From positions 682,001-746,000 of the forward strand of contig JAENRU010000279.1 of the NCBI GenBank assembly GCA_016647705.1: a stretch of 64,000 nt of DNA. The letters run 5' to 3'. How positions within the stretch are numbered: position 1 is the stretch's first letter; each line of letters opens with the position of its first letter. This document shows positions 29,601-64,000 of this stretch, one piece after another. The notes beneath the pieces were generated by a model. That model saw only the letters and a program-made list of their open reading frames with translations. It ran no database searches and was not told the origin of the DNA. A program made the position numbers and the translations under genes. Source of the stretch: Eucommia ulmoides. Lineage: Eukaryota > Streptophyta > Magnoliopsida > Garryales > Eucommiaceae.

Positions 29601-29603
29601 AAG

Positions 29604-29615
29604 TGGTATTAGAGT
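29604..29615 (+). other. Primer-binding site, initiator tRNA-Met type
   Basis: TGGTATTAGAGT three bases after the LTR end. Plant copia and many gypsy elements have TGGTATCAGAGC here, complementary to the 3' end of initiator tRNA-Met; 10 of 12 bases agree. Confidence 0.6.
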
Positions 29616-30574
29616 GGGTTTGCGACTATCCTAAACTTGAGTTATAGTACCCATTACTCATAATAAACAAATAAATACCTAAAAAAAAAAAAAAAAAAGT
29701 AAGGAGGTTTACATCAATGATTTCAGATAAAGCTAAAAGTAATTATCGACGGACAAGCTAAAATACAGAAAGAAGACTGTTTGATGGCCAAAATATGCTC
29801 ACAGAAAAATAAAGGCCGATGCATTTCATTGGAAAAAAATAAAAGAGAATTAAAAAGATTTAGAACTTTTATTTGTCCAACTGCTTACTCACTCTACAAA
29901 GTAGTAATTCAATGGTTAGGGAAAAAAAAAAAAAAAACATATAGAGGTTGTGTAATTTTTTAGGCGTGGTTAGCGTCCCCTGCTTTATGTACAAGTTGAC
30001 TATCACAAAATCCTTTTTCAAAGTTCCACCAAAAAAAAAAAAAAAAAAGCACTTTAATCTTTTTTTGGACCCATATATCTTTAATTTTAAATTGCTAACG
30101 TGCTCGGAGATGCTGTCAACTTACCATTTTTATGGAGGATACTTGAGGGAAGCCCATGAGTCATGACTACAATTGCATATACTTGTTTCTTAAAATTTCT
30201 ATATAAATACTTATTTGATGCCTGATTCTAGCTTAATAAATACTTCTAGGGAGATCAAAAATATCATTATGTTTCTGATTAACATAAGCAAATACAAGAG
30301 GAAAATCTCATTACTCGCCATTGATGCAAATCGTTGCCACACTAACATTCGACTTTCATAAATACAACAGAAAGTTCCCCATTTCAAAATCATGTCATTG
30401 TCTTCTTTGTTTGATATTGTTGAAGAGGATAGACTTCGGTCTTAATGCATGTGCAACTTGCTTTTTGTAAAAAAAAATTTAAAAAAAAAAAGAAAAAAAA
30501 GAAGAAGAAGTTAAGTAAGACTTGATGAGTGTTGTGTAGTTGTGGACCATAGGGTTATTGGTTTAAAAAGATGT

Positions 30575-32110: not shown

Positions 32111-32309
32111 AATAGATATTGGTCTACTACTAGCGTTAGGTGGAGCCGGAGTGTGGAGTCATTGTGAGACTATTGAGAGTTAATTGTTATTTGGAAATTT
32201 TAATTGGTATTTTAAAATTTTGATTGGGGGCTTTATGTAATTTTTTTTTTTATATACATTTGACGTTAGTATTGAACTCGTTATGTCACGTAACTTTGGA
32301 GATGTAATT

Positions 32310-32468
32310 ATATGTTTGAAACGTACTTATGTGGTTAAGATATATTTATGTGTTTTGAGACGTATTTATGTATTTCGATACATATTTATGAGGTTGACAC
32401 GTATTTCTGAGTTTCGAGCCATATTTATGTGGCTGACACGCAATTGTGTTTGGACACACAATTATGTG
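32310..32468. repeat. Minisatellite of about 20 bp at the fragment/satellite junction
   Basis: About eight degenerate copies of an ACGTATTTATGTGTTTGAG-like unit (19-20 bp), the last of which passes directly into the resumed satellite at TTATGAGAGAGCATC. Confidence 0.75.
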
Positions 32469-38400: not shown

Positions 38401-41400
38401 TGGAAGGATAACACTCATAAAACTCCCCAATTTTGACACAACAATAAGAAATCATCTTTCGATTGGGTAACAGATGCAATTGATCCAAAATTTAAAATCA
38501 TGAAATTTTCAAAGGTTATACATACCGATAAATCCCAATTTCACTACTTTTTTAAAACACTTAACATCGTGAAATTTTGGAAGGAAAACACTCATGAAAT
38601 CCCTCAATTTTGATGCCATGATGAGAAAATATCATTTAATTAGGTAATAGAAAGAATTGATCCAAAACTCAAAAATCATGAAATTTTCAAAGGCTATAAC
38701 ACAACGAAAAAATCCGATTTCGCTAATTTTTTTTCAACATTTGAAATCTTGAAATTCTGAATGGATAGCACTCATGAAACTCTCCAATTTTGATTCCACT
38801 ATGAGAAATAATCATTTGATTGGGTAACTTGTGCAATTGATCCAAAAGTCCAAATCGTGAAATTTTCAAAGGTTATAATATATAATATATCGAAAAATCT
38901 CAATTTCACTAATTTTTTGAAACACTCAAAATCGTAAAATTTGGGAAGGAAAACACTCACGAAATTTTTTTGATACCATTACAATAAAACAATATTTGAT
39001 TTGGTAATGAAAATAATTGATTAGAAACTTAAAATTGTGAAATTTTTAAAGGCTATATTGTACACTGAAAAATTCAAATTTTGCTAATTTTTTAAACACT
39101 AAAAATTGTGAAATTTTCAATGGCTAATAATCAAGAAACTCCAGATTTTTATACCATTATTAAAAATCATCATTTGATAGGGTTTCAGATGCAGTTGATC
39201 TAAAACTCAAAATCGTGAAATTTTCATAGGCTACAAAACACCGAAAATTCCCGATTTTTCTAATTTTTCTGAAACACTTGAAATCGTGAAAGTTCGAAAA
39301 GTAAACACTCATGAAACCCCTTATTTTTGGTACTGTTACGAGAAAATATCATTTGATTGGGTAATGGAAGCAATTAATTCAAAATTCAAAATTGTGAAAT
39401 TTTCAAAGGTTATAGTACACCAAAAATTTCGATTTCTCTATTTTTTTAAACATTCAAAATTGTGAAAATTTGAAAGGTTAACACTCACGAAACATCCCAA
39501 TTTCAATTCCATTATGAGAAAGAATCTTTCCATTGATTAACATAAGAGATTCATTTGAAACTCAAAATCGTGAAATTTTCAAAGGTTACATCAAAAATTT
39601 TTGATAGCGCCACTTTTTTGAAACACTCAAAATCATAATATTTTAAAAGGTTAATACTCATGAAACACTTGATTTTGATACCATTATGAGAAGGCATCAT
39701 TTGATAGGGTAACAGATGTAATTGATCTAAAACTCAAAATTGTAAAATTTTCATAGGTTATAGCACATCGAAAATTCCCGATTTTGTTAATTTTTGAAAC
39801 ACTTGGAATCATAAAATTTTGAAAGGTTAACAATCATGAAACCCCCCGATTTTGACATCATTCTGAGAAAACATAATTTGATTAGGTAATGGAAGCAATT
39901 GATTAGAAACTCAAAATAGTAAAATTTTCAAAGGCTATATAGTACACCAAAAAATTCTAATTTTACTATTTTTTTTTTAAACACCTAAAATCGTGAAATT
40001 TTGAAAAACTAACACTCAAGTAACCCCAAATTTTGATACCATTATGAGAAAGTATCATTTAATTAGATAAGGGAAGCAATTGATTAGAAACTCAAAATCG
40101 TGAAATTTTCAAAGGTTATCGCACACCGAAAAATCCCATTTTTGTTAATATTTTGAAACACTTGAAATAAAACGATTTTGAAAGGCTAACATTCACGATA
40201 TTCCCCATTTTTTATACCACTATAAAAAAATATCATTTGATTGGATAACAGAAGCAATTGATTAGAAATTCAAAATAATGAAATTTTCAAAAGCCATATC
40301 GAAAAATCCTAATTTCACTAATTTTTTGGAACACTCAAAAGCGTGGAATTTTGAATTTTCAACACTCACAAAACCCCCCCAATTTTGATACTATTATGAG
40401 AAAGCATTAGTTGATTAGATAACAGATTCAATTTATCGTTTACAGAAAATTATGAAATTTTCAAGAGTTATAGCATATCGAAAAATCCTGATTTTGCTAA
40501 TTTTTTAAATACTCGAAATCGTGAAATTTTGAAACCTTAACACTCATGAACCCCTCCAATTTTCATATCTTTCTGAGAAAACATAATTCTATTGGTTAAT
40601 AAAAGAAATTCATTCGAAATTAAAATCATGAAACTTTCAATAGCTATATAGCATACTGAAAAATTTCGATTTTACTACTTGTTTGGAAGACTAAAAATCA
40701 TGAAATTTTGAATGGTTAACACTCACGAAACCCATAAATTTCAATAACATTATGATAAAGCATCATTCTATTGGTTAACAAAATAAACCCCATAAATTTC
40801 AATTTCGTGAGTACTTGAATTCTAACAATTTTGAAAGGATAACTCTGAGGAAACCCCCCCAATGTTAATACCATTATGAGAAAATATCATTTGATTTCGT
40901 AATAGATGCAATAAAACCCAAACTAAAAATCGTGAAATTTTTGAAGGTATAACACACTGAAATTTTTTGATTTCGCTAATTTTTTAAAACACCCAAATTT
41001 GTGAACTTTTTAGAGGCTAACACTCACGAAACCCCCTAATTTGGATACCATTACGAGAAATATTCATTCTATTGGTTAATGGAAGAACTTAGTTCAAAAA
41101 CAAAAATCGTAAAATTTTTGAAAGCTATAACATATTGAAAAATCCCGATTTATTATTTTTTTGAAACACTTGAAATCTAACAATTTTGAAAGTATAACAC
41201 TTATGAAACTCCCAAATTTTTATACCATTATGAGAAAGTATGATTTGATTTGGTAATCCCAAACTCAAAATAGTGAAATTTTCAAAGGTTGTAGTACACC
41301 AAAAAAATCTCGATTTTGCTAATTGTTTTAAAAAATCAAAATCGTAAAATTTTTAAAGGTTAATACTCATGAACTCCCCCCCCCTCCCAAAAAAAAATTG

Positions 41401-44400
41401 GAAATCAATATGAGAAATAATCATACTATTGGTTTAAAAAATATTAATCAAAAACTCAAAATCGTAAAATTTTCGAAGGCTATATCACACCGAAAAATTA
41501 CGACTGCTTTAGTTTTTTTAAACACTTGAAATCATGAAATTTTGTAAGGATAACACTTAGGAAATTTTGCAATTTCGATACCATTATGAGAAAAATCCAA
41601 ATTTCACTACTTTTTGAAACACTCAAAATTGTAAAATTTAGAAAAGTCAACAATCAAGAAACCCCCTCAATTTTGATACCATTATGAGAAAGTATCATTT
41701 GATTGGGTAACGGAAGTAATTGATCTAACAACTCAAAATCATGAAATTGTCAAAGCCTAAAGCTAAACGAAAAATCCCGATTTCGCTAGTTTTGATACAC
41801 TCGAAATTGTGAAAATTTGAATGGTTAAGACTCACGAACTCCTCAATTTTGATACCATTACGAGAAATAATTGTTCAGTTGGTTAACATAATAATTCATT
41901 CAAACATAAATTGTGAAATTTTCAATGGCTATAACCCACAAAAAAGTCCAGATTTTGGTAAGATTTTGAAAGACTAAAAATTGTAAAATTTTGAAAGGCT
42001 AACAATCACGAAATCCTCCAATTTTGATGTCATTATGAGAAAGTATCGTTTGATCGGGTAACAGAAGGATCCAAAACTTGATCGTGAAATATTTAAAGGC
42101 TATAACATATCGAAAAATCCCAATTTCACTTTTTTTTTGGAACGCTCAAAAATCGTGAAAATTTTGAAAGGATAACATTCTCGAGACCCCCAATTTTTAT
42201 ATCATTAGTTGAAAACATCATTCTATTGGTTACGAGAAGAAATTCATTCAAAATTCAAAATCGTGAAATTTTCAAAGGCTATGTAGCACACAATTTTTTT
42301 TTTTTGGCTACTTTTTTGAAACAATCAAAATCGTGAAGAGTTGAATCGGATAAACTCGCAAAACCCCTTGATTTTTATATTTATTATGAGAAATAATCAT
42401 TTCATTGGGTAATGAAAGAAATTAATCAGAAACTCAAAATAGTAAAATTTTCAAATGGTATAGCACACTGAAAAATCCTAATTTCATTACTATTTTGAAA
42501 TACTAAAAATCGTGAAATTTTGAAAGGTTAACACTCACAAGACCCCTTAATTTTGATACCATTATGAGAAAATGCCATTTTATTGGGTAACGGAGGAAAT
42601 TGATTTGAAACACAAAATTGTGAAATTTTCAGAGGTTATATAACACCCCGAAAAATCCCAATTTCACTAATTCTTTAAAAACAAGAAATCGTGAAATTTT
42701 GAAAGCTTAACACTTACAAAATCCCTCAATTTTGATTCCATTATGAGAAATATTCATTCCGTAGGTTAACAGAAAATTTTGTTTAATGGAAAAAGTTTAT
42801 ATGAAATTAAAAATCGTAAAATCTTTAAAGGCTATAATACAACGAAAAATCCAGATTTCGTTAATTTTTTGAAATGCTGGAAAAAAGGCTAACTCTCACG
42901 AAACTCCCCAATATTGAAACCATTATGAGAAAGCGTCATTCGATTGGGTAAAGGAAGCAAGTAAACCCAAAATCAAAATTGTGAAATTTTCAAACGCTAT
43001 GGCGCATCGAGAAATCCCAATTTCGCTAATTTTTTAAGCACTGAAAATCGTGCAATAGGTTAACACTCACAAAACCCCTAAATTTTGATACCATTATGAG
43101 AAATAATCATTCTGTTGGTTAACATAAGAAATTCATTTAGAACCCAAACTTGTGAAATTTTCAATGGTTATAGCATACCAAAAAATCTTGATTTTGCTAA
43201 TTTTTTAAAACAGTGAAAATCGTAAAATTTTGAAAGGAAAAAACTCATGAAACCCACCAATTGTTTATGCCATTACGAGAAAATATCATTTGATTGGGTA
43301 ACAGAAGCAATTGATCCAAAACTCAAAATCGTGAAATTTTCAAACAATATAGCATATCGAAAAATTTCAATTGCATTAATTTTTTTAAACACTTCAAATT
43401 ATGAAATTGTGAAAGGCCAACACTCACAAAACTCCCGAATTTGTATACCATTATTAGAAAGCGTCATTTGATTGGGTAATGGAAGCAATTCATTCAAAAC
43501 TCGAAATCGTGAAATTTTTAAAGGCTAGAGTACATCGAAATATTCTGATTTTGCTACATATTTGAAATAGTTGAAATTGAGAAGTTTTGAAATGGATAAA
43601 ATCATGAAACGCCCTAATTTTAATACTATCACAAGAAAAAATCATTTGATTGGGTAAAGGAAGCAATTGATCAGAAACTCAAACAAGTGAAATTTTTAAA
43701 CGGTATACCACATCAAAAAAATTCCAATTTCACTACTTTTTTGAAACACTCAAAATTATGAAATTTTGAAAGGCAAAAACGCTAACGAAACTCCTCAATT
43801 TTGATACCATTATCATAATGCAACATTTGATTGTGTAATGGAAGCAATTGATCAAAAACTCAAAATCGTAAAATTTTCAAAGGTTAGCACATAAAAAAAT
43901 TCCAATTTTGCTATTTCTTTTGAAAACTCGAAATCATAAATTTTTTGAAAGGTTAGTACTCAGGAAATATTCCAATTTCAATACCATTAATATAAAGCAT
44001 CATTATATTGGTTAATAGAAGAAATTTATTCCAAACTCAAAATCATAAATTTTTCAAAGACTATATAGCGTATCGAAAAAATTCGATTTTGCTAATTTTT
44101 TGAAACACTAGACATCAAAATTTTTGAAAGGCTAAAACCCATGGGACACCCTAAATTTTGATACCATTATGAGAAAATATCATTTGATTGCGTAACTGAA
44201 GCAATTAATCCCAAACTCAAAATCAATTTTTTTTTAAAGATTATAGCACACCAAAAAAATGCTAAATTTGCAAATTTTGTCAAACACTAAAAATTGTTAA
44301 TATTTGAAAGGTTAACACTCATGAAGCCCCCAATTTAGGTACTATTACGAGAAATAACCATTCTACTGGTGAGCAGAAGAAATTAATTTTAAACCCAAAA

Positions 44401-44899
44401 TCTTGAAATTTTCAATAGCTATAGCACACCAAAAAATCTTGACTTCGCTAGTTTTTTGAAACACTAAAAATCATAAAAGTTTGAAAGGTTATCAGTCACG
44501 AAACTCCCTAATTTAGATGCCATTATGAGAAAGCATCATTTGATTGGATAATGAATACAATTGAACCAAAACTCAAAATTGTGAAATTTTGAAAGGTACA
44601 GCACACCGAAAAATTTAAATTTCATTATTTTTTTTGAACACTTGAAATCCTGAATCTTTTAAAGGATAACACTTACGAAACACTCCAATTTTGATACCAT
44701 TATGAGAAAGCATAATTTGAAAGGGTAACGGATATAATTGATCAAAAAATCTTAATAGTGAAATTTTAAAAGGTACCACACCGAAAAATTTCAATTTCAC
44801 TACATTTTTCAAACACTCATTATCCTGAAATTTTAGAAGGCTAGCATTCTCGAAAACCCCTAATTTTGATGCCATTAAAAGAAATCGTCATTTTATTGG

Positions 44900-47800
44900 T
44901 AACAGAAGAAATTCATTCAAAGCTCAGAATCGTAAAATTTTCAAAGGCTATAGTACATTGAAAAATTCTAATTTCACTACTTTCTAGAAAAACTCAAAAT
45001 CGTGATATTTTGAACGGCCAACACTCATGAAACCTCCCTAATTTTGATATATATATTAGAAAGTATCTTTTGATCGGGTAACATAAGTAATTTTGGGTAA
45101 CATAAGTAATTTATCAGAAACACAAAATTGTGAAATTTTACACACCGAAAAATCACGACTTCGCTAATTTTTTTAAACACTCGAAATTAGGAAATTTTGA
45201 AAGGTTAACACTCACGAAACCCTCTAATTTTGAAAGCATTACGAGAAAGTATAATTTTATTGGCTAACAAAAGAAATTCAAAGGAAACTCAAAATTGTGA
45301 AATTTTCAATGACTAGCACATTGAAAAATCCCGATTATGCTACTTTTTTCAAAGCACTCAAAATCGTGAAATTTTGAAATGTTAGCAACCACGAAACCCC
45401 CAATTTTTATCCTATTATGAGAAAACATCATTCTATTGGTTAACATAAGAAATTCATTCGGAACTCAAAATATTGAAATTTTCGGTGGCTATAGCATGCT
45501 GAAAAATTTCGATTTTGCTAATTTATTGGAATAATCAAAATCAAACAAATTTGAAAGGCTAGCTCTCATACAACCCTCCCAATCTTGATAACATTATGAT
45601 AAAGCATAATTTGATTTGGTAACATAAACAATCAAACCCAAATTGAAACTCATGAAATATTTGAAGGCCATAGCACACCTAAAAATCTCGATTAAGCTAT
45701 TTTTTTTTAAATAATCAAAATCGTAAAATTTTGAAAGTATAACATTTACAAAACCCCCCCACTTTGGATACTGTTATGATAAATAATCATTCCATTGGTT
45801 AATAGAAGAATTTAATTCAAAACCCAAAGTCGGGAAATTTTCAATGACTACAGAACACCGAAAAATCCCGATTTTATTAATTTTTTGAAACATTTGAAAT
45901 CGAACAATTTTGAAAGGGTAAAACTCACGAACCCCCCCGATTTTGATACCATTATGACAAAGCAACATTCGATTGGGTAACGGAAGCAATTAATCCCAAA
46001 CTCAGAATAGTAAAATTTTCAAAGGCCGTAGTATACCAAAAAATCCAAATTTCGCTAATTTTTAAGAATAATTAAACTCTTAAAAATTTGAAAGGTTAAC
46101 ACTCACGAAACCACCCCAAATTTGGATACCATTACGAGAAATAATCATTCTATTGGATAAAAAAATTGGTCCAAAACTCAAAACTGTGAAATTTTCAAAA
46201 GCTACAACACCCCGAAAAATTTGAATTGAACTAATTTTTTAAACACTTGAAATCGTGAAATTTTAAAAGAATAACACTTACGAAACCCCCCCAATTTTTA
46301 TACCATTATGATAAAAGTATCATTTGATTGGGTAATAGAAGCAATTGATTAGAAACTATGAAATTTTCCAAGACAAAACACACCAAGAAATCCCATTTTT
46401 CACTACTTTTTTGAAACACACAAAATCGTGAAATTTTGAAATGGCAACATTCAATAAATCCCCTTATTTTGATACCATTATGAGAAAATATTATTTTATT
46501 GAGTAACAGAAGCAAATGATAAAAAACTCAAAATTGTGAAATTTTCAAAAATTTGGGCACACCGAAAATGCCCGATATCGATAATTTTTTTAATGACTCA
46601 AAATCGTAAAATTTTGAATGTTAATACTCACGAAACCCTTCAATTTCGATACCATTATGAGAAATAATCATTCTACTTGTTAATGTAAGAAATTCATTCA
46701 AACTCAAAATCGTAAAAGTTTTAATGGATATAACGCTAAAAAAAATCCAGATTTTACTAATTTTTGAAACACTGAAAATCGTAAAATTTTAAAAGGCTGA
46801 CAATCATAAAACCCTCCAATTTTGATGTCATTATGAGAAAACATCATTTGACTGGGTAAAGGGAGAGATTGATCCAAAACTCGAAATAATGAAATTTTCA
46901 AAGGCTATATGGCAAACCGAAAAATCCTAATCACTAACAGTCTCGAAACCCCCCAATTTTGATACCATTAGTTGAAAAAATAATTCTTTTGGTTAACAGA
47001 AGAAATTTATTCGAAACACAAAATCGTGAAGTCTTCAAATGAAATATTGCACAATGAAAAATTCTGATTTTGCTACTTTTTTCAAAACTTTTAAAATTGT
47101 GAAGTTTTGAAACAGATGAAATGACAAAGCCCCTTGATTTTGATAATTATTAAGAGAAAGAATCATTTGATTGGGTAACGAAAGCAATTGATTGGAAAGT
47201 AAAAATAGTAAACTTTTCAGTGGGTATAGTACACGGAAAAATTCCAATTTCGCTACTATTTTGAAATAATAAAAATTGTGAAATTTTGAAAGGTTAACAC
47301 TTATGAAACCCCACCAATTTTGATTCCAATATGAGAAAACATCATTTCTATTGGGTGAGAGAAGCAATTAATTTGAAACACAAGATAATAAAATTTTCAA
47401 AGGCAATTGCACACCGAGAAATCCTAATTTCGCTAATTTTTTTAAGCACACAAAAACATGAAATTTTGAAAGCTTAACAATCACAAAATCCCCCAATTTT
47501 GATTCCATTATGAGAAATATTCATTCTATTGGTTAATAGAATAAATTCATACGAAACTCAAAATCATAAAATTTTTAATTGCTATAGCACTCCGAAAAAT
47601 CTAGATTTTGTTATTTTTTTAAAACACTCGAAATCAAACAATTTTGAAAGGATAACTCTCATGAAAGCCCCCATTTTTTATATTATTTTGCGAATGGATC
47701 ATTTGATTGGGTAGTGGAAGCAAGTAAACCCAAACGCAAAATCATAAAATTTTCAAAGGTAGTGGCAAACCGAATTTTTTTGATTTTGCTAATTTTTTAA

Positions 47801-50800
47801 ACACTCAAAATTGTGAAATAGTTTAACAATCACTAACCCTCCAATTTCAATACCATTACAAGAAATAATTATTCTATTGGTTAACAGTTTAAATTCATTC
47901 AAAACCTGAAATCGTGATATTTTCAATGGCTATAGCACAACAAAAACTCCGAATTTTGCTAGTTTTTAGAAATAGTGAAAATTGTGAAATTTTGGAAGGC
48001 TAAAACTCAAGAAACCTGTTAATTTTTATGCCATTATGAGAAAGTATCGTTTGATTATGTAACTGAAGCAATTGATCCACAACTAAAAACTTTGAAATTT
48101 TAAAAGGTACATACCAATTTTTTTTTTTTTTTTTTTTAATTTTGCTAATTTTTTGAAACACTTGAAATAATGAAATTTTGAAAGGCTAGCCCTCACAAAA
48201 CTCTGCTATTTATGAACCATTACGAGAAAACATCATTTGATTGGGTAACAGAAGTAATTCATTCAAAACTCAAATTCATTAAATTTTCAAAAGGACATAG
48301 AAAAATTCTGATTTTGCTACTTTTTGGAAACAATCAAAAGCTCCCTAATTTTGATACTATTATGAGAAAAAAAATCATTCGATTAGGTAATGGAAGCAAT
48401 CAATCAGAAACTCAAAATAGTAAAATTTTCAAATGCTACGGTACACCGAACAATTCTAATTTTACTACTTTTTCGAAAAGCTCAAAATTGCGAAATGTTG
48501 AAAGGCAAACACTCATGAAACCCTTCAATTTTGATACCATAATCAAAAAGCAATGTTGATTGCGTAACAGAAGCAATTGATCAGAATCTCAAAATTGTGA
48601 ACTTTTCAAAGGTTATGGCACATCGAAAAATTTCGATATCACTAATTTTTTTAAACACTTGAAATTGTAAAATTTTGAAAGGTTAACACTCATAAAATCC
48701 CCTAATTTTGATACCATTATAATAAGGAATCATTCTATTGGTTAACAAAAGAAATTCATTTTAAACTAAAAATCATGAAATTTTCAAATGTAAACATAGT
48801 GAAAAATCTTGATTTTGTTAATTTTTTTTAAACACTAAAAATCATGAACTTTTGAAAGGCTATCACTCACAAAAGCCCTCAATTTTGATGCCATTTTGAG
48901 AAGGCATCTTTGATTGGATAATGGAAGCAATTGAACCAAAACTCAAAATCGGGAAATTTTCAAAGGCTATATAGCACATCGAAAAATCGCGATTTCACAA
49001 TTTTTTTGAACACTTGAAATCGTGAAATTTTTAAAGTATAATACTTATGAAACACCCCAAATTTTATACCATTATGAGAAAGTATAATTTGATTGAATAA
49101 CAGAAGCAATTGATCATAAACTCATAATAGTAAAATTTTCAAAGGTGATAGCACAACAATTTTTTTTTTTTTTTTTTTAATTTCATTACATTTTTGAAAC
49201 ACTCAAAATCGTGAAGTTTTGGAAGGCTAACATTCCCGAAACCTCCCAATTTCGATACCATTACAAGAAATCTTCAATCTATTGGTTAACTGAAAAAATT
49301 CATTCGAAACTCAGAATAGTAAAATTTTCAAAGGCCACAACATACTGAAAAATCCCAATTTCACTACTTTTTTTAAACACTCAAAATCGTAAAATTTTGA
49401 ACGGCCAATACTCACACAACCTGAAAATTTTGATATCATTATGAGAAAGTATCATTTGATTGGGTAAGGGAAGCAATTTATAAGAAACATGAAATTGCAA
49501 AATTTTCAAAGGCAATAACACCCTGAGAAATTCCAATTTCACTAATTTTTTAAACACTCGAAATCAAGAAATTTTGAAAGCTTAACACTTACAAAATCCC
49601 TCAATTTCGATACCAATATGAGAAAGCATAATTCTATTTTTAATAGAAAAAATTCATTTGCAACTCAAAATCACGAAATTTTCAAAGATTAAGGCACACT
49701 AAAAAATCTTGAGTTCGCTATTTTTTGGAAACACTCAAAGTCGTAAAATTTTGAAAGGCTAACACTCATGAAATCACCCAATTTTTATACCATTATGAGA
49801 AATAATCATTCTATTGGTTAATAGAAGAAATTCATTTGAAACTCAAAATTGAGAAATTTCTAAAGGCTAATTATGAAATCCGAAAAATCTAGATTTCACT
49901 GATTTTTTGGAATACTCGTAATCGAACAATTTTGAAAGTCTAACTCTCCGGAAACCCCCCAATATTGATAGTATCCCAATATTGATAGTATTATGAGAAA
50001 ACATCATTTTATTTGGTAACAGAATCAATTAAACTCAAACTCAAAATCTTGAAATTTTTAAAGGCTACCACACCGAAAAATTTCGATTTCTCTAATTTTT
50101 TTTAACACTCAAAATCGTGAAATTTAGAAAGACTAATACTCACGAAACCCCCTAATTTGGATACCATTATGAGAAATAATCATTCTATCAGTTAATAGAA
50201 GAAATTCATTCAAAACCCAAAATCCTGAAATTTTTATTGACTATAGCATACCAAAAGATCTAGATTTTGCTACTTTTTTAAAATAGCAAAAATCTTGAAA
50301 TTTTGAAATGTTGAAACTCACCAAACCCTCCAATTTTAGGCCAATATAAGAAATCATCATTTGAATGGGTAAAAGAAGCAATTGATTCAAAAAATCAAAA
50401 TCGTGAAATTTTCAAAGTCTATAGCACACCTCAAAATCTCGATTTCAGTAATTTTCTAAACACTTGAAATCGTGAAATTTTGAAAGGGTAACACTCACTA
50501 AAAATGACTAATTTTATACCATTATAAGAAGGTATTATTTGATTGGGTAACGAAAGCAATTTATTTGAAACTCAAAATCTTAAAATTTTCAAAGATTGTA
50601 GCACACATAAAAATTCTGAATTTTTCTTCTGTTTTGAAAAAGTCAAAATCGAAAAATTTCGATATGAATAAACTAGAAACCCCCTAAATTTTAATACTAT
50701 TATGACAAATAATCGTTTGATTGGGTAGCAAAAGAAATTGATCCAAAACTCAAAATAGTAAAATTTTTAGAGGCTATAGCACACCAATATTTTTTAATTT

Positions 50801-52870
50801 TACTACTTATTTGAAACACTCAAAATCATGAATTTTTGAAAGATAAACACTCACGAAACTCTCTAATTTTTATACCATTGTCAGAAAGCAACATTTAATT
50901 GGATAACAAAAGTAATTGATCAAAAATCGTGAAATTTAGAAAGGTTAACACACACGAATCCCCCAATTTGGATACCATTACAAGAAATGATAATTTTATT
51001 GGCTAACAGAAGATACTAGTTTGAAACCCAAAATCTTGAAATTTTCAATGGCTATAGCATACCTCAAAATCTTGATTTTTCTAGTTTTTTTACAACCCTG
51101 AAAATGGTAAAATTTTGAAAGGGTAACACTCACGAAACCTTTCAATATTGATGCCATTATGAGAAAGTATCATTTTATTAGGTAATGGGAGCAATTGATC
51201 CAAAACTCATGATCGTGAAATTTTCGAAAAGTATAGCACACCGAAAAATCTCGATTTCGGTAATTTTGTTGAACACTTGAAATAGTAAAATTTTAAACAG
51301 ATAACACTTATGAAACCCTCTAATTATAATACTATTATGAGAAGACATCATTTGATTAGATAACAAAAGTAATTGATTAGAAACCATTATAGTGAAATTT
51401 TCAAAAGCGACACACCGAAAAATCCAAATTTCACTAATTTTGTAAACACAAAAAATTGTGAAATTTTGAAAGGTTATCAATCACAAAATCCCCCAATTTC
51501 GATATCATTACAAGAAAACATCATTCTATTGGTTAACAAAAGAAATTCATTTGAAACTCAAAATCTGAAATTTTTGAAGGATGTAGTACACTGATAAAAT
51601 TCGATTTTATTACTTTTTTGAAACAGTCAAATTCATGAAATTTTGAAATGGATAAACTCACAAAACCTAGTAATTTTGATACTATTATAAGAAACATTAA
51701 TTTGATTGGGTAACAAAAGTAATTGATCAGAAACTCAAAATAGTCAAATTTTCAAAGGTTATAGCACACCGAAAACTTCCACTTTCACTATTTTTGTGAA
51801 AGACTCAAAATCGTAAAGTTTTGAAAGGTTAAGACTCATGCAACCCCTATATTTTGTTACCATTGTGAAAAATCATCATTTGATTGGGTAATAGAACCAA
51901 TTGTTCTGAAACAAAAAATCGTGAAATTTTCAAAGCTTAACACTCAAAACCCGATACGTTTAATTCAATTACGATAAAAGCATCATTCTATTGGTTAATA
52001 GAAGAAATTCATTCGAAACTCAAAATCGTAAAATTTTCAAAGGTATATAGCACACCAAAAAATACCGAACACTTGAAATCGTTAAATTTTGAAAAATTAA
52101 CACTCACGACTCCCCTAATTTTAATACCATTATGGGAAAGTAACATTTTGATTGTTAACAGAAGAAATTAATTCCAAACTCAAAATTGTGAAATTTTTAA
52201 AAATTATAGCACACCAAAAATCTCAAATATTTGCTAATTTTTTACAACACTTGAAAGCGAACAATTTTGAAAGGCCAACTCTCACGAAACTCCTAAATAT
52301 TGATAACATTATGATAAATCATCGTTTTGTTAGGTAAGGGATGGAATTAAACCCAATATCGAAATTATGAAATTTTCAAAGGCAATAATATAACAAACTG
52401 AAAAATATCTATTTTGTTAAGTTTTTTGAACATTCAAAATAATGAAATTTTGAAAGTCTGACTCACGAAACCCCACAATTTGGATACTATTACAAGAAAT
52501 AATCATTTTATTGGTTAAGAGAAGAAATTCATTCAAAACCCAAAATCATGAAATTTTCAATGGCTATAGCACATCGAAAATCCTGATTTTACTTGTTTTT
52601 TTGAAACAGTGCAAATAGTGAAATTTTAAAAGGCCAAAACTCATGAAACACATCAATTTAGATGAAATTATGAGAAAACATCATTTGATTAGGTAACGGA
52701 AGCAATTTATCCAAAATTCAAAATCGTGAAATTTTCAAAGGCTATATACCATACCTAAAAATCCTGATTTCGCTAATTTTTAAAAAAATTTGAAATCGTA
52801 AAATTTTGAAAGGTTAACATGAACAAAACCCCTCCCAATTTCCATACTATTATGAGAAATAATCATTCTA
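44900..52870. repeat. Higher-order satellite block, copy A (about 8 kb)
   Basis: About 45 monomers that match the next block (52870-61010) one for one at an offset of about 7.97-8.14 kb. Linked oddities occur in both: AAAGCATTA in place of ATACCATTA (45233 and 53203), CGATTAAGCTA (45690 and 53661), TTGGATA...AAAAAAATTGGTC (about 46150 and 54150), CCTTGATTTTGATAATTATT (47141 and 55187), the fused short monomer (48336 and 56396) and TTTTGTTGAACACTTGAAAT (51261 and 59236). Confidence 0.8.
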
Positions 52871-55800
52871 TGGGTTAACAGAATAAATTCATATGAAACT
52901 CAAAATTGTGAAATTTTCAAAGGCTCTAGCTCACCGAAAAATTTTAATTTTTTTAATTTCTTGAAACTCTCAAAATTAACAAATTTGGAAAGGCCAACAC
53001 TCACGAAACCCTCCAATTTTGATTCTTTTATAAGAAAGTATCATTCGATTGGGTAACACAAGCAATTTATCAGAAACACAAAATTGTGAAATTTTCAAAG
53101 GCTATATAGCACACCGAAAAATTTCGATTTCTCTAATTTTTCTAAACACTCGAAATTGAGAAATTTTGAAAGGTTAACACTCACGAAACCTGCTATTTTT
53201 AAAAGCATTATGAGAAAGCATCATTCTATTGATTAATAGAATAAATTTAATGGAAACTCAAAACCGTGAATTTTTCAAAGGCTATAACACATTGAAAAAT
53301 CCTGATTATGCTATTTTTTTCCAAATACTCAAAATTGTGAAATTTTGAAAGATTAGCAACCACGAAACTCCCAATTTTTATACTGTTATGAGAAAACATT
53401 ATTCTATTGGTTAATAGAATAAATTTATTTGAAACTCAAAATATTGAAATTTTCGAAGGCTATAGCGCACTGAAAAATTCTGATTTTGCTAATTTCTTGG
53501 AATAATCAAAATCGAACAAATTTGATAGGATAACTCTCATGAACCCCCGTCCCCCCAGTATTATGAGAAAACATCATTTTATTTGGTAATGGAAGCAATT
53601 AAACCCAAACTGAAAATAATGAAATTTTTGAAGGCTATAGCACACCTAAAAATCCCGATTAAGCTAATTTTTTTAAATAATCAAAATCGTAAAATTTTGA
53701 AAGGATAATATTCACAAAATCTCCCAATTTGGATACTGTTATGATAAATTATCATTCTATTGGTTAATAGAAGAAATTAATTCAAAACCCAAAGTCGTAA
53801 AATTTTCAATGGCTATAGCACACCAGAATATTCCGATTTTGTTAATTTTTTGAAACACTTGAAATCAAATAAAAACATTTGAAATCAAATAATTTTGAAA
53901 GGTTAAAACTCATTAAACCCCCCAATTTTGATGCCATTATGACAATGCATCATTTGATTGGGTAACAGAAACAATTAATCCCAAACTTAGAACAAGTTAA
54001 TTTTTGAAAGCTGTAGAATACCGAAAAATCCAGATTTCGCTAATTTTTTTAAACAATTAAATTCATAAAATTTTGAAAGTCTAACACTCACGAACACCCC
54101 CCCTGCCCCGAAAAAAAATTTGGATACCACTACAAAAAATAATCATTCTATTGGTTAAAAAAATTGGTCTAAAACTCAAAATTGTAAAATTTTCAAAGGC
54201 TGTCAGCACCCCGAAAAATTCGTATTGCACTAATTTTTTAAACACTTGAAATCGTGAAATTTAAATGGATAACACTCAAGAAATCCCCCAATTTTTTTAT
54301 CATTATGAGAAAAGCGTCGTTTGATTGGGTAATAGAAGCAATTGATTGGGAAAAAAAATAGTGAAATTTTCAAAGGCTATAGGCACACTGAGAAATCCCA
54401 TTTTCACTACTTTTTTAAAACACACAAAATCTTGAAATTTTAAAAGGCCAACATTCAAGAAACCCCCTTATTTTGATACCATTATGAGAAAACATCATTT
54501 GATTGAGTAACAGAAGCCAATGATCAAAAACTTAAAATCGTGAAATTTTCAAAGGTTAGGGCATACCAAAAAATCCTGATATCGACAATTTTTTTAAAGA
54601 CTCAAAATCGTGAAATTTTGAATGGTTAATACTCATGAAACCCCTAAATTTTGATACCATTATGAGAAGTAATAATTCTATTGGTTAATGTAAGAAATTC
54701 ATTCAAATCGAAAATCGTGAAATTTTCAATGGCAATAACCCTTAAGAAATCCAACATTTTGGTAATATTTCGAAACAATGAAAATCGCAAATTTTGAAAG
54801 GCTAACAATCACAAAATCCTCCAATTTTGTTACCATTATGGGAAAGCATCATTTCATAGGGTAACAGGAGAGATTGATCCAAAACTCAAAATCGTGAAAT
54901 TTTCAAAGGTTATATAGCACACCGAAAAATCCTAATTTTACTACTTTTTTGAAAGACTCAAAATCACAAAACTTTGAAAGGCTAACATTCTCGAAACCCC
55001 CCAATTTTGATACCACCAGTTGAAAGAATCATTCTTTTGGTTAACAGAAGAAATTTATTCGAAACTCAAAATCGTGAAATTTTCAAAGGAAATATCGCAC
55101 ACCAAAAAATCTGATTTTGCTACTTTTTGGAAACAGTCAAAATTGTGAAATTTTGAAACGGATAAAATCACAAAAACCCTTGATTTTGATAATTATTATG
55201 ATATAGAATCACTTGATTGAGTAACGAGAGCAATTGATTAGAAACTAAAAATAGTAAACTTTTCAATGGGTATAACACACTGAAAAATTATAATTTCACT
55301 ACTATTCTAAAATACTAAAAATTATGAAATTTTGAAAGACTAACACTCACAAAACCCCTTAATTTTGATACCAATACAAGGAAACATCATTTTATTTGGT
55401 AACAAAAGCAATTCATTTGAAACACCAGATAATAAAATTTTCAAAGGTTATATAGCACACCGAAAAATTTCGATTTCGCTAAATTTCTTAAGCGCACAAA
55501 ATCACGAAATTTTGAAAGTTTAACACTCACGAAATCCACCAATTTTGATTCCATTACAAGGAATATTCATTCTATTAGTTAACGGAAGAAATGCATTTGA
55601 AATTCAAAATTGTAAAATTTTCAAAATTCTGTAGCACTCCGAAAACTCCCAATTTCGTTAATTTTTTGAATCACTCGAAATCAAACAATTTTGAAAGGAT
55701 CACTCTCATGAAAGACCCCAATTTATATACTATTATGAGAATGAATCATTCAATTGGGTAGTGGAAGCAATTAAACCTAAACCCAAAATCATGAAATTTT

Positions 55801-58800
55801 CAAAGGCAATGGCACATCGAAAAATTCCGATTTCGCTAATTTTTTTTAAACACTCAAAATTGTGGAATAGGTTAACACTCACTAACCCCCCCCCCCCCCT
55901 CCCCCCATTTGGATACCATTACGTGAAATAATTATTCTATTGGTTAATAGATTAAATCCATTCAAAACCCAAAATCGTGATATTTTCAAAAGCTATAGCA
56001 CAACGAAAAATCCTGATTTTGCTAGTTTTTCGAAATAGTGAAAATCGAAAAATTTGAAAGGTTAAAACTGAAGAATCCTGTCAATTTTAATGCCATTATG
56101 AGAAAGAATCATTTGATTGGGTAACAAAAGCAATTGATCCAAAGCTCAAAATTTTAAAATTTTCAAAGGCACACACCGAAAAAAAAATCAATTTCGCTAA
56201 ATTTTTGAAACACTTGAAATCATGAAATTTTGAAAGGTTAGAACTCATGAAACTCCCCAATTTATAAACCATTATCAGAAAGCGTCATTTGATTGGATAA
56301 CGGAAACAATTCATTTGAAACTCAAAATTGTGAAATTTTTAAAGGCTATATAACATATATAGAAAAGTCTGATTTTGCTACTTCTTTGAAACAGTCGAAA
56401 TTGCCCAATTTTTTATACTATTACTAGAAAAAAACCATTCGATCGTGTAATGGAAGCAATTAATCAGAAACTGAAATATTGAAATTTTTGAAGGCTATAG
56501 TACACCGAAAAATTCTAATTTATTATTTTCTCGAAATTCTCAAAATTGCGAAATGTTGAAAGGCAAACACTCACGAAACCTCTCAATTTTTGATACCGTT
56601 ATCAGAATAAAACATTTGATTGTGTAACGGAAGTAATTGATTAGAAACTCAAAATTGTGAAATGTTTAAAGGTAGCACATCGAAAAATTTCGATTTCCCT
56701 AATTTTTTTTAAACACTTGAAATTGTAAAATTTTGAAAGGTTAACACATGAATCCCCCAATTTTGATACCGTTATAAGAAGGAATCAGTTTATTGGTTAA
56801 CAGACTAAATTCATTCCAAACTTAAAATCAAGAAATTTTCAAAGGCTAACATACCGAAAAATCTTGATTTTGTTTATTTTTTGGAAACACTAAAAATTAT
56901 GAAATTTATAAAGGCTATCACTCACGAAAGCCCCCAATTTTGATGCCATTATAAGAAGACTTCATTTGATTGGATAATGGAAGCAATTGAACTAAAACTC
57001 AAAATTGTAAAATTTTCAAAGGCACACAGAAAAATCATGATTTCACAATTTATTTAAACACTTGAAATCATGATATTTTTCAAGGATAACACTTTAGAAA
57101 ATCCCCAATTTTTATACCATTATGAGAAAGCATAATTTGATCGGGTAACGGATGTAATTTATCATAAACTCATAATAGTGAGATTTTCAAAGGTTATATA
57201 GCATACCAAAAAATTTCAATTTTACTACATTTTTGAAACACTCAAAATCGTGAAGTTTTGGAAGGCTTACATTCCTAAAACCTCCAAATTTCAATACCAT
57301 TAAAAAAAATCTTCATTCTATTGGTTAACCGAAAAAATTCATTCAAACCTCAGAATAGTGAAATTTTCAAAGGCTATAACACAACGAAAAATCCCAATTT
57401 CACTACTTTTTTTAAAGACTCAAAATCATGAAATTTTGAATAGCCAATACTCAGGAAACTTGTAAATTTTGATACCATTATGAGAAAGTATCATTTGATT
57501 GGGTAACTGAAGCAATTTATAAGAAACACAAAATCGCAAAATTTTCAAAGGCTAGCACACTGAGAAATTCTGATTTCACTAATTTTTTTAAATACTTAAA
57601 ATTATGAAATTTTGAAACCTTAACACTCATGAAACCCCTGAATTTTGATACCAAGAATAATTCAATTGGTTAATAGAAGAATTTCGCTCGTAACTCAAAA
57701 TCCTAAAATTTTCAAAGGCCACAACACATTGAAAATTCCCAAGTTCGCTATTTTCTTGAAACACTCAAAATCGTGAAATTTTGAAAGACTAACATTCACG
57801 AAACTGCCCAATTTTTATACCATTATGAGGAATAATAATTCTATTGGTTAACATATGAAATTCATTTGAAATTCAAAATTGTGAAATTTTCAAAGGCTAA
57901 TTGTGAAATCTAAAAAATCCAGATTTTGCTAATTTTTTGGAATACTCAAAATCGAATATTTTTGAAAGGCTAACTCTTAGGAAACCCCCCAATGTTGATC
58001 CTAGTATGAGAAAATATTTTTTTTTATTTGGTAATGGAATCAATTAAACCCAAGGTCAAGATCTTGAATTTTTTAAAGGCTATAGCACACTGAGAAATCC
58101 CGATTTTCCAAAAATTTTTAAACTCTCAAAATCCTAAAATTTTGAAAGACTAACACTAACAAAACCTCCCAAATTCGATACCATTATGATAAATAATCAT
58201 TCTATAAGTTAATGGAAGAAATTCATTCAAAACCCATAATTGTGAAATTTTTAATGACTATTGCACGCCGAAAAATCTAGATTTTGCTAGTTTTTGAAAA
58301 CATTAAAAATCTAGAAATGCTGAAACTCAAGAAACCCTCTAATTTTAGGACAATATAAGAAAGCATCATTTGATTGGGCAACGGAAGCAATTGATTCAAA
58401 ACTCAAAATCATGAAATTTTCAAAGGTTATAGCACACCTAAAAATCTCGATTTCGATAATTTTTTTAAACATTTGAAATCATGAAATTTTGAAAGGATAA
58501 CACTCACTAAAAATCTTTATTTTGATACTGTTATGAGATAGCATCATTTGATTGGATAATTAAAGCAGTTTATTCGAAACTCAAAATCCTAAAATTTTCA
58601 AAGGCTATAGCACACCGTGAAATTTCGATTTTACTCATTTTTTGAAACAATCAAAATCGTGATATTTCTATACGGATAAACTAGAAAACCCCCCAAATTT
58701 TAATACTATTACAGGAAAGAATCATTTGATTAGGTAGCAAAAGTAATTGATTCGGAACTCAAAATAGTAAACTTTTCAAAGACTATAGCACACCGGAAAA

Positions 58801-61010
58801 TTTCAATTTCATCACTTCTTTGAAACACTCCCCATGACACTCCCCAATTGTGATACCATTGTCAGAAGACAACATTTGATTGGATATCGGAAGTAATTGA
58901 TAAAAAATTATGAAATTTAGAAATGTTTACACTCACGAAACCCCCCAATTTAGATACCATTATGAGAAATGATTATTCTATTGGTTAACCGAAGAAATTA
59001 GTTCAAAACCCAAAAGCTTGAAATTTTCAATGGCTATAATACACCCCAAAATCTTTAATTTTTTGAAACTCAGATAATCGTAAAATTTTGAAAGAGTAAC
59101 ACTCACGAAACCCTCACCTTTCAGGCCATTATGAGGAAGTATCATTTGATTAGGTAATAGAAGCAATTGATCCAAAACTCAAAATCGTGAAATTTTCAAA
59201 AGATATGACACACCGAAAAATCTCGATTTCACTAATTTTGTTGAACACTTGAAATAGTAAAATTTTGAAAGGATAACACTTATGAAACCCCCTAATTTTG
59301 ATACTATTATGAGAAAGCATAATTTGATTAGATCCAAATTTCACTAATTTTTTAAACACAAAAAATCGTGAAATTTTAAAAGATTAACAATCACGAAATC
59401 CCCCAATTTTGATATCATTACAAGAAAACTTCATTCTATTGGTTAACAGAAGAAATTGAAACTCAAAATCGTGAAATTTTCAAAGGCTGCACACCAAAAA
59501 AATCTGATTTTACTATATTTTGAAAACACTCGAAATCGTAAAATTTTGAAATGCTAACACTCCCAAAACCTCCCAATTTTGATACCATTACAAGAAAACA
59601 TCATTCTATTTGTTCACTGAAGAAATTCATTTGAAAATTCAAATCTTGAAGTTTTCAAAGGCTAGCACACCGATTTTTTTATTTTTTATTTTGCTACCTT
59701 TCCGAAAAAGTTAAAATCGTGAAATTTTGAAATGGATAAACTCACGACACTCTCTAATTTTGGTACTATTATGAGAAAGAATCATTTGATCGTATAATTG
59801 AAGCAACTTATCAGAAACTCAAAATAATGAATTTTTCAAAGGTATAGCATACCGGAGAAATTTTAAAACGCTCAAAATCGTGAAATTTTGAAAGGACAAC
59901 ACTCACGAAACCCCCATATTTTGATACCATTATGAGAAAGAAATATTTTATAGGGTAACAGAAGAAATTGTTTTGAAACAAAAAATTGTAAAATTTTCAA
60001 AGGTATAGCATACCGGAGAATCATGATTTTGCTAATTTTTTAAACACTCAAAATCATGAAAATTTTCAAGCTTAACACTCAAATACCCCCTACATTTGAT
60101 ATAATTATGATAAAAGCCTCATTCTATTGGTTAATAGAATTTTTTTTTCGAAACTCAAAATCGTGAATTTTTTAAAGGTTATATAGCAAAAAAAAAAAAA
60201 AAAAAAATGTCGAACACTTGAAATTGTTAAATTTCGAAATCTTAACACTCACGAACTCCCCTAATTTTAATACTATTATGAGAAAGTATCATTTTAATTA
60301 TTAACTTAATAAATTCATTCCAAACTCAAAATTGTAAAATTTTTAAAGGCTATATAGCACATCGAAAATATCCAATTTTGCTAATTTTTAAAACACTTGA
60401 TATCAAACAATTTTGAAAGCCTAACTATCCTGAAACCCCTAAGTAATGATACCGTTATGATAAATCACTATTTTATTAGGTAACGGATGAAATTAAACCC
60501 AAAATCCAAATCGTGAAATTTTCAAAGGCAATAATCCGAAAAATTTCGATTTTGCTAAGTTTTTTTGAACACTCAGAATAAGGAAATTTTCAAAGTATTA
60601 CACTCAAGAAATGCCCCAATTTGGATACCATTACAAGAAATAATCATTCTATTGGTTAACAGAAGAAATTCAGTCAAACCCAAAATTGTTAAATTTCAAT
60701 GGCGCTATAGAACACCGAAAAATCCTGATTTTGCTTGTTTTTTGAAACAGTGCAAATTGTGAAATTTTAAAAGGTTAAAACTCACAAAACACATCACTTT
60801 TGATGAAATTATGAGAAAACATAATTTGATTGGGTAACGGTAGCAATTGATCCAAAACTCAAAATCATGAAGTTTTTAAAAGTTGCACTTAAAAATCCTG
60901 ATTTCGCTAATTTTTTTAAAAACTTGAAATCATGAAATTTTGAAAGGTTAACACCAACGAAACCCCCTAATTTTCATACCATTACAAGAAATAATCATTC
61001 TATGGGTTAA
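52871..61010. repeat. Higher-order satellite block, copy B (about 8.1 kb)
   Basis: Counterpart of the block at 44900-52870; see there for the shared landmarks. Its length differs through local indels, including an additional CATTCTATT-type monomer near 59600 and a shortened monomer near 59335. It ends at the TCTATGGGTTAAC monomer (61001), which corresponds to 52868. Confidence 0.8.
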
Positions 61011-64000
61011 CTGAAGAAATTCATATGAAAATCAAAATCGTGAAATTTTCAAAGGCTATAGCACACTGAAAATTGTCAATTTTGTTAATTTTTTAAAACT
61101 CTTGAAATCAACAAATTTTTAAAGTTTAACAATAACAAAACCCCTAAATTTTGATGCCATTATGATAAAGCATCATTTGATTGGGTAATGGAAGCAATTG
61201 ATCCAAAACTCAAGATCGTGAAATTTTCTAAGGGGGGCATACAAAAAAATCCCGATGTCGCTAATTTTTTTAGATACTTGAAATCGTAAAATTTCAAAAT
61301 GGTAACACTCACAAACCCCCTAAAATTTGATACTATTATGGGAATAAATAATGTGGTTGGGTAACGGAAGCAATTCGTTTGAAACTCGAAATCGGGAAAT
61401 TTTTAAAGGTTATATAGCACATCGAAAAATTCTGAATTTGCTATTTTTTGGAAATATTCAAAATCAAGAAATTTTTAAATGGATAAACTCACTAAACCCC
61501 CTAATTTTGATAATATTACAAGAAAGAATCATTTGGTTGTGTAACAGAAGCAATTGATCAGAAACTCAAAATAGTTAAACTTTCAAAGATAGCACACCAA
61601 AAATCTCACTTTCACTACTTTTTTGAAACACTCAAAATCGTAAAATTTTCAAATTGTATAACATATTGAAAAATTTCAATTTCGTTAATTTTTTAAACAC
61701 TTGAAATTATAAAATTCTGAAATGTTAACAATCACGAAATCCCCCAATTTCGATACCACTACAAGAAAATATCAATATAATGATTACTAGATGAAATTCA
61801 TTTAAAACTGATAATTGTGAATTTTTCAAAGGCTATACAATACACAAAAAAATCTCTATTTCGATAAGTTTTTTAAACACCCAAAATCGTGAAATTCGGA
61901 AAGGTTAACACTCACAAAACCACTCAATTTGGATACCATTATGAGAAAATATCATTTGATTGGATAACAGAAATAATTAATCTAAAACTCTAAATCGTGA
62001 AATTTTCAAATGTGATATAACACCGAAAAATCCCGATTTCCCTAATTTGTTTCAACACTCAAAATCGTGAAATTGGGAAAGGTTAACATTCACGAAATCC
62101 TCCAATTTTGATACCATTACAATAAATAATCATTCTATTGGTTAATAGAAGAAATTAATTCAAAACTCAAACTCGAGAAATTTTCAATGGCTATAGCACA
62201 CCTGAAAATCTTGATTTTACTAGTTTTTTAAAGTACTAAAAATTATGAAAGGATAACACTCACGGAACCCCCCCAATTTCGATGCCATCATGAGAAGGTA
62301 TCATTCGATAGGGTAATGGAAGCAATTGAACAAAAACTCAAAATCGTGAAATTTTCAAAGGTTATAGCACGCCGAAAAATCTAGATTTCACTTATTTTTT
62401 TGAATAGTTGAAATCGTGAAATTTTGAAATGATAATTATCTCTTGTGAAACCACCAATTTTTTGTATCATTATGAAAAAACATCATTTCATCGGATAACG
62501 GAAGTAGTTGATCAGAAACTTATAACAGTGAAATTTTCAAAGGCTATAGCACCCCGAAAAGTTCCAATTTTACTATATTTTGCAAACACTCAAAATCGTA
62601 AAATTTAGAAATGCTAACACTCCCAAAACCTTCCATTTTTTATACCATTACAAGAAAGAATCATTCTATTTGTTCATTGAAGAAATTCATTCGAAACATC
62701 AAATCGTGAAATTTTCGAAGGCTATAGCACCCGAAAAATTTCAATTTTGCTACTTTTCTGAAAAGTCAAAATTGTGATATTTGGAAATGGAAAAACTCAC
62801 GGCACCCTCTAATTTTTCTACTATTCAAAGAAATAATCATTTGATTGGGCAATGGAAACAACTGACCACAAACTCAAAATAGTGAATTTTTTCGAATGCT
62901 ATAACACACCAAAAATTCCCAGTTGCATTACTTTTTTAAAACATTCAAAATAGTAAAATTTTGAAAGGAAAACATTCACGAAACCCCCATATTTTGATAC
63001 CATTATGAGAATGTAAGATTTTATTGGGTAACATAAGAAATTATTCTGAAATAGAAAATCGTGAAATTTTCAAAGGTTACAGTATATCGAAAAATCACGA
63101 TTTAGCTAATCTTTTTAAACACCCAAAATCGTGAAATTTTTAAAACTTAGCACTCATAAACCCCCCATATGTTTGATACAATTACGATAAAGTATAATTC
63201 TATTGGTTAACAAAAGAAATTTATTCGAAACTCAAAATTAAAATTTTCAAAAGCTATAGGACACCAAAAAATACCGAACACTCGAAATAGTTAAATTTTA
63301 AATCTTAACACTCACGAGCTCTCCCAATTTCAATAACATTGTAAGAAACTATCATTTTAATTGTTAACAAAAGAAATTCATTCCAAACTCAAAATCGTGA
63401 TTTTTTTAAAAGCTATAGCCACCAAAAATCTCCAATTTTCCTAACTTTTTAAAACACTCGATATTGAACAATTTTGAAAGGTTAACTCTTAGGAAACCCC
63501 TAAATATTGATACCATTATAATAAATCATCATTTCATTTGGTAACAAAAGCAATTAAACCCAAAATCCAAATCGTGAAATTTTTAAAGGCAATATAACAC
63601 ACCGAAAAATCCCGATTTTGCTAAAAAAAATTTTAACACTCAAGATAATGAAATTTTGAAAGTCTTACACTTACGAACCCCCCCTCTCTCCCCCCCAATT
63701 TGGATACCATTACGAGAAATAATCATTCTATTGGTTAACATAAAAAATTAATTCAAACCCAAAATCGTGAAATTTTCAATGGTTATAGAATACCGAAATT
63801 TTTTAATTTTGCTTGTTTTTTGAAACAGTGCAAATTGTGAAATTTTAAAAGGTTAAAACTCATGAAACACATCAATTTTCATGCAATTATGAGAAAGCAT
63901 AATTTTATTGGGTAACGGAAGTAATTGATCCAAAACTCAAAATCATGAAATTTTCAAATGCTAGAGAACACCTAAATTTTTTGATTTCACTAATTTTTTT
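59050..64000. repeat. Tandem duplication of about 3.07 kb at the right end of the window
   Basis: Monomers from about 59.05 to 60.9 kb recur at 62.1-64.0 kb with an offset of 3060-3079 bp. Linked landmarks: TTCTATTTGTTCA (59604 and 62664), a truncated monomer with CGAACAC (60212 and 63273), TTTTAATTRTTAAC (60290 and 63353) and TGAAACAGTGCAAATTGTG (60740 and 63820). The second copy runs off the window. Confidence 0.75.

Follow-up and report, generated by a model that had tools for sequence, protein, structure and literature searches.

The question raised by this locus is what left a repetition of about 8 kb inside an array of short satellite monomers in Eucommia ulmoides: a higher-order repeat (HOR) or an old duplication of a whole block. 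Every sequence comparison of the satellite was made within the window, that is, the whole 64-kb stretch of DNA analysed here. The pattern as a whole is very probably explained by one tandem duplication, in which a block of about 45 plant satellite monomers (~8 kb) was copied, most likely by out-of-register homologous exchange.

The satellite sets in at about 18.2 kb, is interrupted by other sequence at approximately 20.1-22.5, 23.6-24.2 and 28.3-32.5 kb, and runs unbroken from 36.2 kb to the end of the window (64.0 kb), where it is still continuing. Wraparound alignment to a 178-bp consensus gave 266 segments from 18 kb on, a count that includes the non-satellite stretches. The 160 segments starting after 36.2 kb, none dropped, are the core set, and the lag analysis was performed on 159 of them after a stricter cut.

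36206-64000, plus strand: uninterrupted array of the ~178-bp satellite; 160 monomer segments in a single orientation, by wraparound alignment to the consensus.

The monomers run head to tail and have nucleosomal length; with a consensus of 178 bp from 36.2 to 64.0 kb, they place this array among the plant satellite DNAs of ~170-180 bp. All nine minus-strand self-BLAST matches, with E values of up to 1e-10, fall outside the core array, at 7.3-7.7 and 23.9 kb. The monomer is composite: its consensus, when shifted against itself by 70 or 108 bp, matches at 34 or 33 bases, respectively, of 40 in the best window, and units of ~67-68 bp at the left edge of the satellite (window positions 18193-18912) can be aligned to its 70-bp part. 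These 68-bp units may be the ancestral repeat, and five monomers beyond 32.4 kb, just 98-111 bp long, have perhaps lost one part of the composite monomer. A text search of both strands of three consensus strings of 14-16 bases, covering printed text and not figures, returned no printed match for the satellite; one consensus pattern occurred in no viral contig, and Rfam gave no match at gathering thresholds. The pistachio satellite PIVE-180 (176-178 bp) was compared through two published primers as its sole proxy, which matched the consensus at best at 12 of 21 and 13 of 20 bases, values equalled by 124 and 15 of 300 shuffled primers, respectively.

To the left of the satellite, the following frames and fragments resemble known proteins:

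573-1067, minus strand: fragment resembling PF20167, 'putative plant transposon protein', scoring under the curated cut-off (33 vs 45 bits).
5,222-5,929: enoyl-CoA hydratase-like frame.
16,566-16,853, minus strand: open frame matching the N-terminal domain of SERK-type receptor kinases, with PF08263 (LRRNT_2); best PDB matches SERK1, OsSERK2 and BAK1.

The SERK-type frame lies ~1.3 kb from the first satellite units and, as a gene flanking the array, points to a land-plant host. Two arrays of T-rich repeats of ~20 bp (TTTCTGTTC-type) occupy 7743-8018 and 8575-9007. The largest non-satellite interruption (28341-32450, ~4.1 kb) has a GC skew opposite to that of its surroundings and contains direct repeats (30,711-30,801 with 31,590-31,680, 82%); four of its peptides matched no Pfam family.

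The core monomers fall into two classes. A principal-component split separated 98 A from 62 B monomers, which are interspersed in irregular alternation. The eight strongest diagnostic columns (33, 34, 41, 42, 48, 58, 63 and 66, counted from 0) span 34 of the 178 bp, a clustering that eight random columns attained in 4 of 200,000 draws; weaker diagnostic columns outside 33-66 include 15, 26 (the next strongest), 124 and 136, among others. In alpha satellite, the A and B monomers differ in a protein-binding box, and the compact diagnostic stretch and irregular alternation of the plant array show the same layout. Within classes, conservation of columns 33-66 was 0.833 for A and 0.859 for B, against 0.842 and 0.840 outside, with no clear functional signal. 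Because these columns are not clearly better conserved, reading them as a binding box is unsupported. It is very unlikely that the array is a fossil centromere which formerly relied on box-type binding and in which block duplications froze the order of the box-bearing monomers.

The 8-kb repetition claimed in the original prediction is real. The top-scoring off-diagonal self-BLAST alignment pairs 43,977-51,405 with 51,959-59,381 (80.1% over 7,603 columns) at an offset of 7.98 kb; among the best 60 matches listed, rows 2-37 have 68.5-71.2% identity and row 38, at an offset of 12.8 kb, has 74.5%. On the global alignment, the best log-odds segment extends from 45,016/52,992 to 52,925/61,057, with 85.5% identity over 7,698 aligned columns and 103 indels, the log-odds rates, pairs and segments having been selected after the diagonals had been seen. 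The copies can be described as follows, the end intervals comprising the positions within 3 log units of the best segment:

45016-52958, plus strand: copy 1 of the ~8-kb block, about 45 monomers, from the log-odds segment; left end 44,935-45,118, right end 52,894-53,023, drawn at the midpoint of the junction interval (52958).
52959-61057, plus strand: copy 2 of the ~8-kb block, adjoining copy 1; left end 52,911-53,074, right end 61,026-61,155.
45076-45112, plus strand: perfect tandem doubling of 19 bp, in copy 1 only (TRF, 100%), facing a 19-base gap in copy 2 at 45,074.

The 19-bp doubling is either a small later event or was lost from copy 2. When the global alignment was followed in 250-bp steps, identity was 0.785-0.903 in 44.9-52.9 kb (offset 7,967-8,146 bp) vs 0.705-0.84 outside. 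The original prediction had staked itself on identity being higher at the 8-kb offset than at other monomer offsets, and it clearly is: a lag of 46 monomers ranked first of 109 lags over all core monomers (0.777; next 0.759, median 0.743), where typical monomer pairs share 73-75% identity, and within 43,964-59,950 it reached 0.829 (next 0.773, median 0.741). The best window of 40 pairs at lag 46 had a mean of 0.840, a value reached by none of 500 shuffles that kept the A/B class order (mean 0.762, maximum 0.773). A scan for segments sharing rare variants, in which the older and 3-kb blocks described below were not listed, found one segment above threshold, at lag 46; the mean by lag was 0.59 at lag 46, followed by lags 73 and 17 (0.24 each), with a median of 0.12.

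In the set of 46 pairs of corresponding monomers (156-194 with +46 and 196-202 with +47, monomer 195 being omitted at the shift), 30 were reciprocal best hits, 7 were best hits in one direction and 9 were neither, and the A/B class was the same in 44. Across the array, 27 of the 40 reciprocal best hits stand at lag 46. Of the nine pairs without a best hit, the left end accounts for two and 50.5-51.5 kb for four, while the others lie singly at 51.8, 48.2 and 49.6 kb. Some monomers of these nine pairs are truncated, and local conversion from elsewhere is conceivable in these places. The spacings of monomers from which the repetition had originally been read were reproduced to within a few bases wherever they could be matched at no more than one mismatch (348, 861 and 544 from 47,526; 365, 853, 528, 345 and 178 from 55,572), but the same threshold did not recover the sites that the original spacings place near 49,637, 50,188, 50,997 and 58,203.

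The diagonal covers 7.91 kb of copy 1 and 8.07 kb of copy 2, close to the offset of 7.98-8.13 kb. Since the diagonal is about as long as the offset, and the right-end interval of copy 1 overlaps the left-end interval of copy 2, the block is present as two abutting copies. Their lengths correspond to 44.6 and 45.5 times 178 bp, and the first contains 46 segments and the second 47, in agreement with the predicted unit of about 45 monomers. Abutting blocks, a diagonal matching the offset and monomer pairs closer than the background are the marks of an adjacent (tandem) segmental duplication, and within the window the structure is a single such event, involving about 45 monomers, and no higher-order repeat with many copies. 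The point at which the copies meet could be narrowed to about one hundred bases:

52911-53023, plus strand: junction interval, defined by the overlap of both end intervals, monomer lengths and quarter-by-quarter matches.

The junction lies inside monomers 202 (52,825-53,004) and 203 (53,005-53,184), which are in phase. As both are full length (180 and 180 bp), the repeat phase was kept in the exchange. If a deviation of up to 3 bp from 178 is counted as in phase, a random break would be expected to give such a junction about 4% of the time, so the preservation of phase favours recombination between out-of-register homologous monomers over random end-joining. Such an exchange, whether an unequal crossover between sister chromatids or homologues or repair copying from a shifted register, would have joined monomers 45-46 units apart in phase, converting X-U-Y into X-U-U-Y, after which the copies would mainly have gained point mutations and small indels. 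Microhomology end-joining could also have produced the 8-kb duplication, and at such an age its product would look the same as that of homologous exchange.

The duplication of the 8-kb block was not the only one that the array underwent. Two further block duplications were found, one to the left of copy 1 and the other reaching into the end of copy 2:

40701-44269, plus strand: older block, at an offset of ~4.7 kb (lag 27 monomers), with partners at ~45.4-49.0 kb (copy 1) and 53,338-57,043 (copy 2).
59335-60871, plus strand: first arm of a ~3.05-kb duplication (lag 17 monomers), 85.3% identical to 62,161-63,949.
62161-63949, plus strand: partner arm of the ~3.05-kb duplication, truncated where the window stops, from the base-level alignment.

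The older block has 81.4% base-level identity with its partner in copy 2, its left end being loose (from 40,041), and its monomers average 79.4% identity with copy 1 and 80.1% with copy 2 (17 pairs each). Class-preserving shuffles reached the observed value in 0 of 500 cases at lag 73 (copy 2) and in 1 of 500 at lag 27 (copy 1). The 3-kb block has 82.7% identity over a wider stretch, and its 12-pair mean of 0.821 was reached by 0 of 500 shuffles. A supposed continuation of the older block at 4.4 kb (lag 25, 12 pairs, identity 0.779, K2P 0.264) is unsupported and was not counted with it, the 12-pair mean being reached by 371 of 500 shuffles; a selected base-level segment in that region has 81.2% identity.

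The relative age of these events can be read from distances and from shared sites. The K2P distance is 0.173 for the 8-kb pairs (0.162-0.187, n=46; 0.162 from the base-level alignment), 0.174 for the 3-kb pairs (8 selected pairs), and 0.243 and 0.233 for the older block at lags 27 and 73 (17 pairs each), vs 0.302 for random pairs of the same class and 0.338 for random pairs of different classes. The 8-kb event is thus a little over half as deep as a typical monomer split (0.173 vs 0.302). In a three-way site test of the older block, 246 sites unite copy 1 with copy 2, vs 124 and 152 for the other groupings; a second stretch, drawing on the 4.4-kb continuation that the shuffles did not support, gave 167 vs 67 and 77. 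These site patterns, with which the K2P distances agree, indicate that the older block preceded the 8-kb event. The same test applied to the 3-kb block split almost evenly (140, 136 and 113 sites), from which the 3-kb and 8-kb blocks appear about equally old. In this order of events, the ~4.7-kb block was duplicated first; the monomers had already diverged, in two interspersed classes, before the 8-kb event, and the ~3-kb block was duplicated at about the same time as the 8-kb block.

The original prediction had called the structure a higher-order repeat, a loose use of the term. TRASH defines an HOR as a pair of similar blocks, with a default maximum of 5 variants per monomer pair (PMC10199239). 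The two copies fit the pair-of-blocks form, but their 1,170 mismatches over 46 pairs, ~25 for each pair of monomers, lie beyond that default. HORs as usually described have tandem copies typically <5% apart (PMC12385485), and a homogenised HOR in the strict sense does not match two copies that are 14.5% apart. An active HOR is likewise disfavoured by this divergence and by the presence of just two copies in the window. It could still be argued that a true homogenised HOR of 45-46 monomers has been amplified further to the right and that the window covers its decayed edge: the array continues past the window, the copies of the block stand in tandem and keep phase, and a two-copy repeat of 52 monomers, by its authors' account without a read-level check, has been described on human chromosome 21 (PMC12385485). 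This is unlikely, given that the copies are 14.5% apart and that no third copy begins beyond 61.06 kb, where 61.28-61.9 kb compared with the start of copy 2 (53.15-53.9 kb) gives 0.73-0.74; what is repeated at 62.2-63.9 kb is confined to the end of copy 2 and stems from the 3-kb duplication.

The order of the A and B classes has some regularity of its own, a tendency to repeat every 5 monomers (~0.89 kb) in an ABAAB-like order, with a lag-5 correlation of 0.33. In the best 40-pair windows, the class agreed in 35 of 40 pairs at lag 5 vs 39 of 40 at lag 46. Outside the diagnostic columns, lag 5 shows no excess identity (0.770 vs a mean of 0.772), so that the 5-monomer pattern probably predates the present divergence of the monomers, and it looks like an older higher-order pattern. 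As this pattern structures the A/B order by itself, the 8-kb diagonal might be a mere effect of regular class order with no shared descent of the block. It is most improbable, for same-class pairs from which the 18 diagnostic columns had been removed still gave 0.815 at lag 46 vs a mean of 0.772 (6.8 SD over lags), none of the 500 class-preserving shuffles reached the observed value, and the copies form one continuous base-level alignment. Class order alone as the cause of the diagonal is thus refuted by the column removal and the shuffles. Satellite arrays are hard to assemble correctly and prone to assembly errors, but a duplicated read path or two haplotypes placed consecutively is scarcely credible here, false duplications being expected near-identical and these copies differing at 14.5% of aligned columns and by 103 indels.

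Descent of the two copies from one tandem duplication agrees with the state of the array at large. Among 190 near-complete monomers (those beginning beyond 22 kb in which >150 positions are covered, shorter monomers being excluded), none of the 17,955 pairs exceeds 90% identity; 39 pairs exceed 85%, and 24 of them stand at lags 46, 47, 17 or 64. Neighbouring monomers share 0.737 vs an all-pair average of 0.743, and lags 1-6 range from 0.735 to 0.744. As no pair exceeds 90% and neighbours are no closer than distant monomers, turnover seems to have stopped. The expectation that the repeat would be an old block duplication and not ongoing homogenisation is upheld by two copies 14.5% apart, the lack of near-complete pairs above 90% and the in-phase junction. 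Transitions affect 16-27% of consensus C and G sites vs 4-6% of A and T sites, and mismatches between the copies 25.8% of C/G sites vs 10.2% of A/T sites; differences are about 2.5 to 3.7 times as frequent at C and G consensus sites as at A/T sites, a bias that, judging by sequence, would be expected of old methylated repeats. Absence of recent near-identical copies and divergence independent of distance are the sequence marks of a dead or ancient satellite layer. The array may therefore be a dead or pericentromeric remnant, as far as its sequence can indicate, in which homogenisation would have ended before the 8-kb event.

The array preserves a readable record of growth in which, once the monomers had diverged, tens of them were copied at a time as blocks. 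With three block duplications that can be placed in relative order, it is useful for calibrating models of satellite turnover. The block-copying process itself has already been described in maize, pea and primates. The rice centromere satellite, too, is said to have been amplified by segmental duplication (Ma and Jackson, 2006, a likeness drawn from the title alone). In plants, HORs of 0.8-1.1 kb are described for switchgrass (PMC4053949), and non-centromeric arrays in Salicaceae are read as of ancient origin with recent expansion (PMC12046899), which sets them apart from the present array. The alpha HOR of 52 monomers on human chromosome 21 resembles it in having two copies of a block of ~50 monomers, but these copies are 0.2% apart and so recent (PMC12385485). 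In dead layers of alpha satellite beside human centromeres, the mean identity between monomers ranges from 0.71 to 0.85 depending on the layer, similar to the 0.73-0.75 found here; homogenisation is held to have stopped there, and one family has two irregularly alternating monomer types, like A and B in the present array (PMC2729386). That satellite is of primates and unrelated, and its position with respect to the active centromere is established in that system only (PMC2729386). In pea CEN6, long parallel diagonals likewise reflect segmental duplications of large portions of satellite arrays, although of other families (FabTR-107 and FabTR-85), a likeness drawn from the diagonals and not from block sizes or divergence (PMC10027222). 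In the CentC arrays of maize CEN10, as in the present case, a block of plant satellite monomers is duplicated beside itself, in a structure there termed HOR, and the monomers at block ends are treated as potentially recombinant (PMC4806543). Seven of those adjacent segmental duplications were dated to 98-498 thousand years, and one of 22.7 kb was attributed, by inference, to microhomology end-joining (PMC4806543). The youngest maize block has 10 monomers, whereas the one duplicated here has ~45 and its copies are strongly diverged (PMC4806543).
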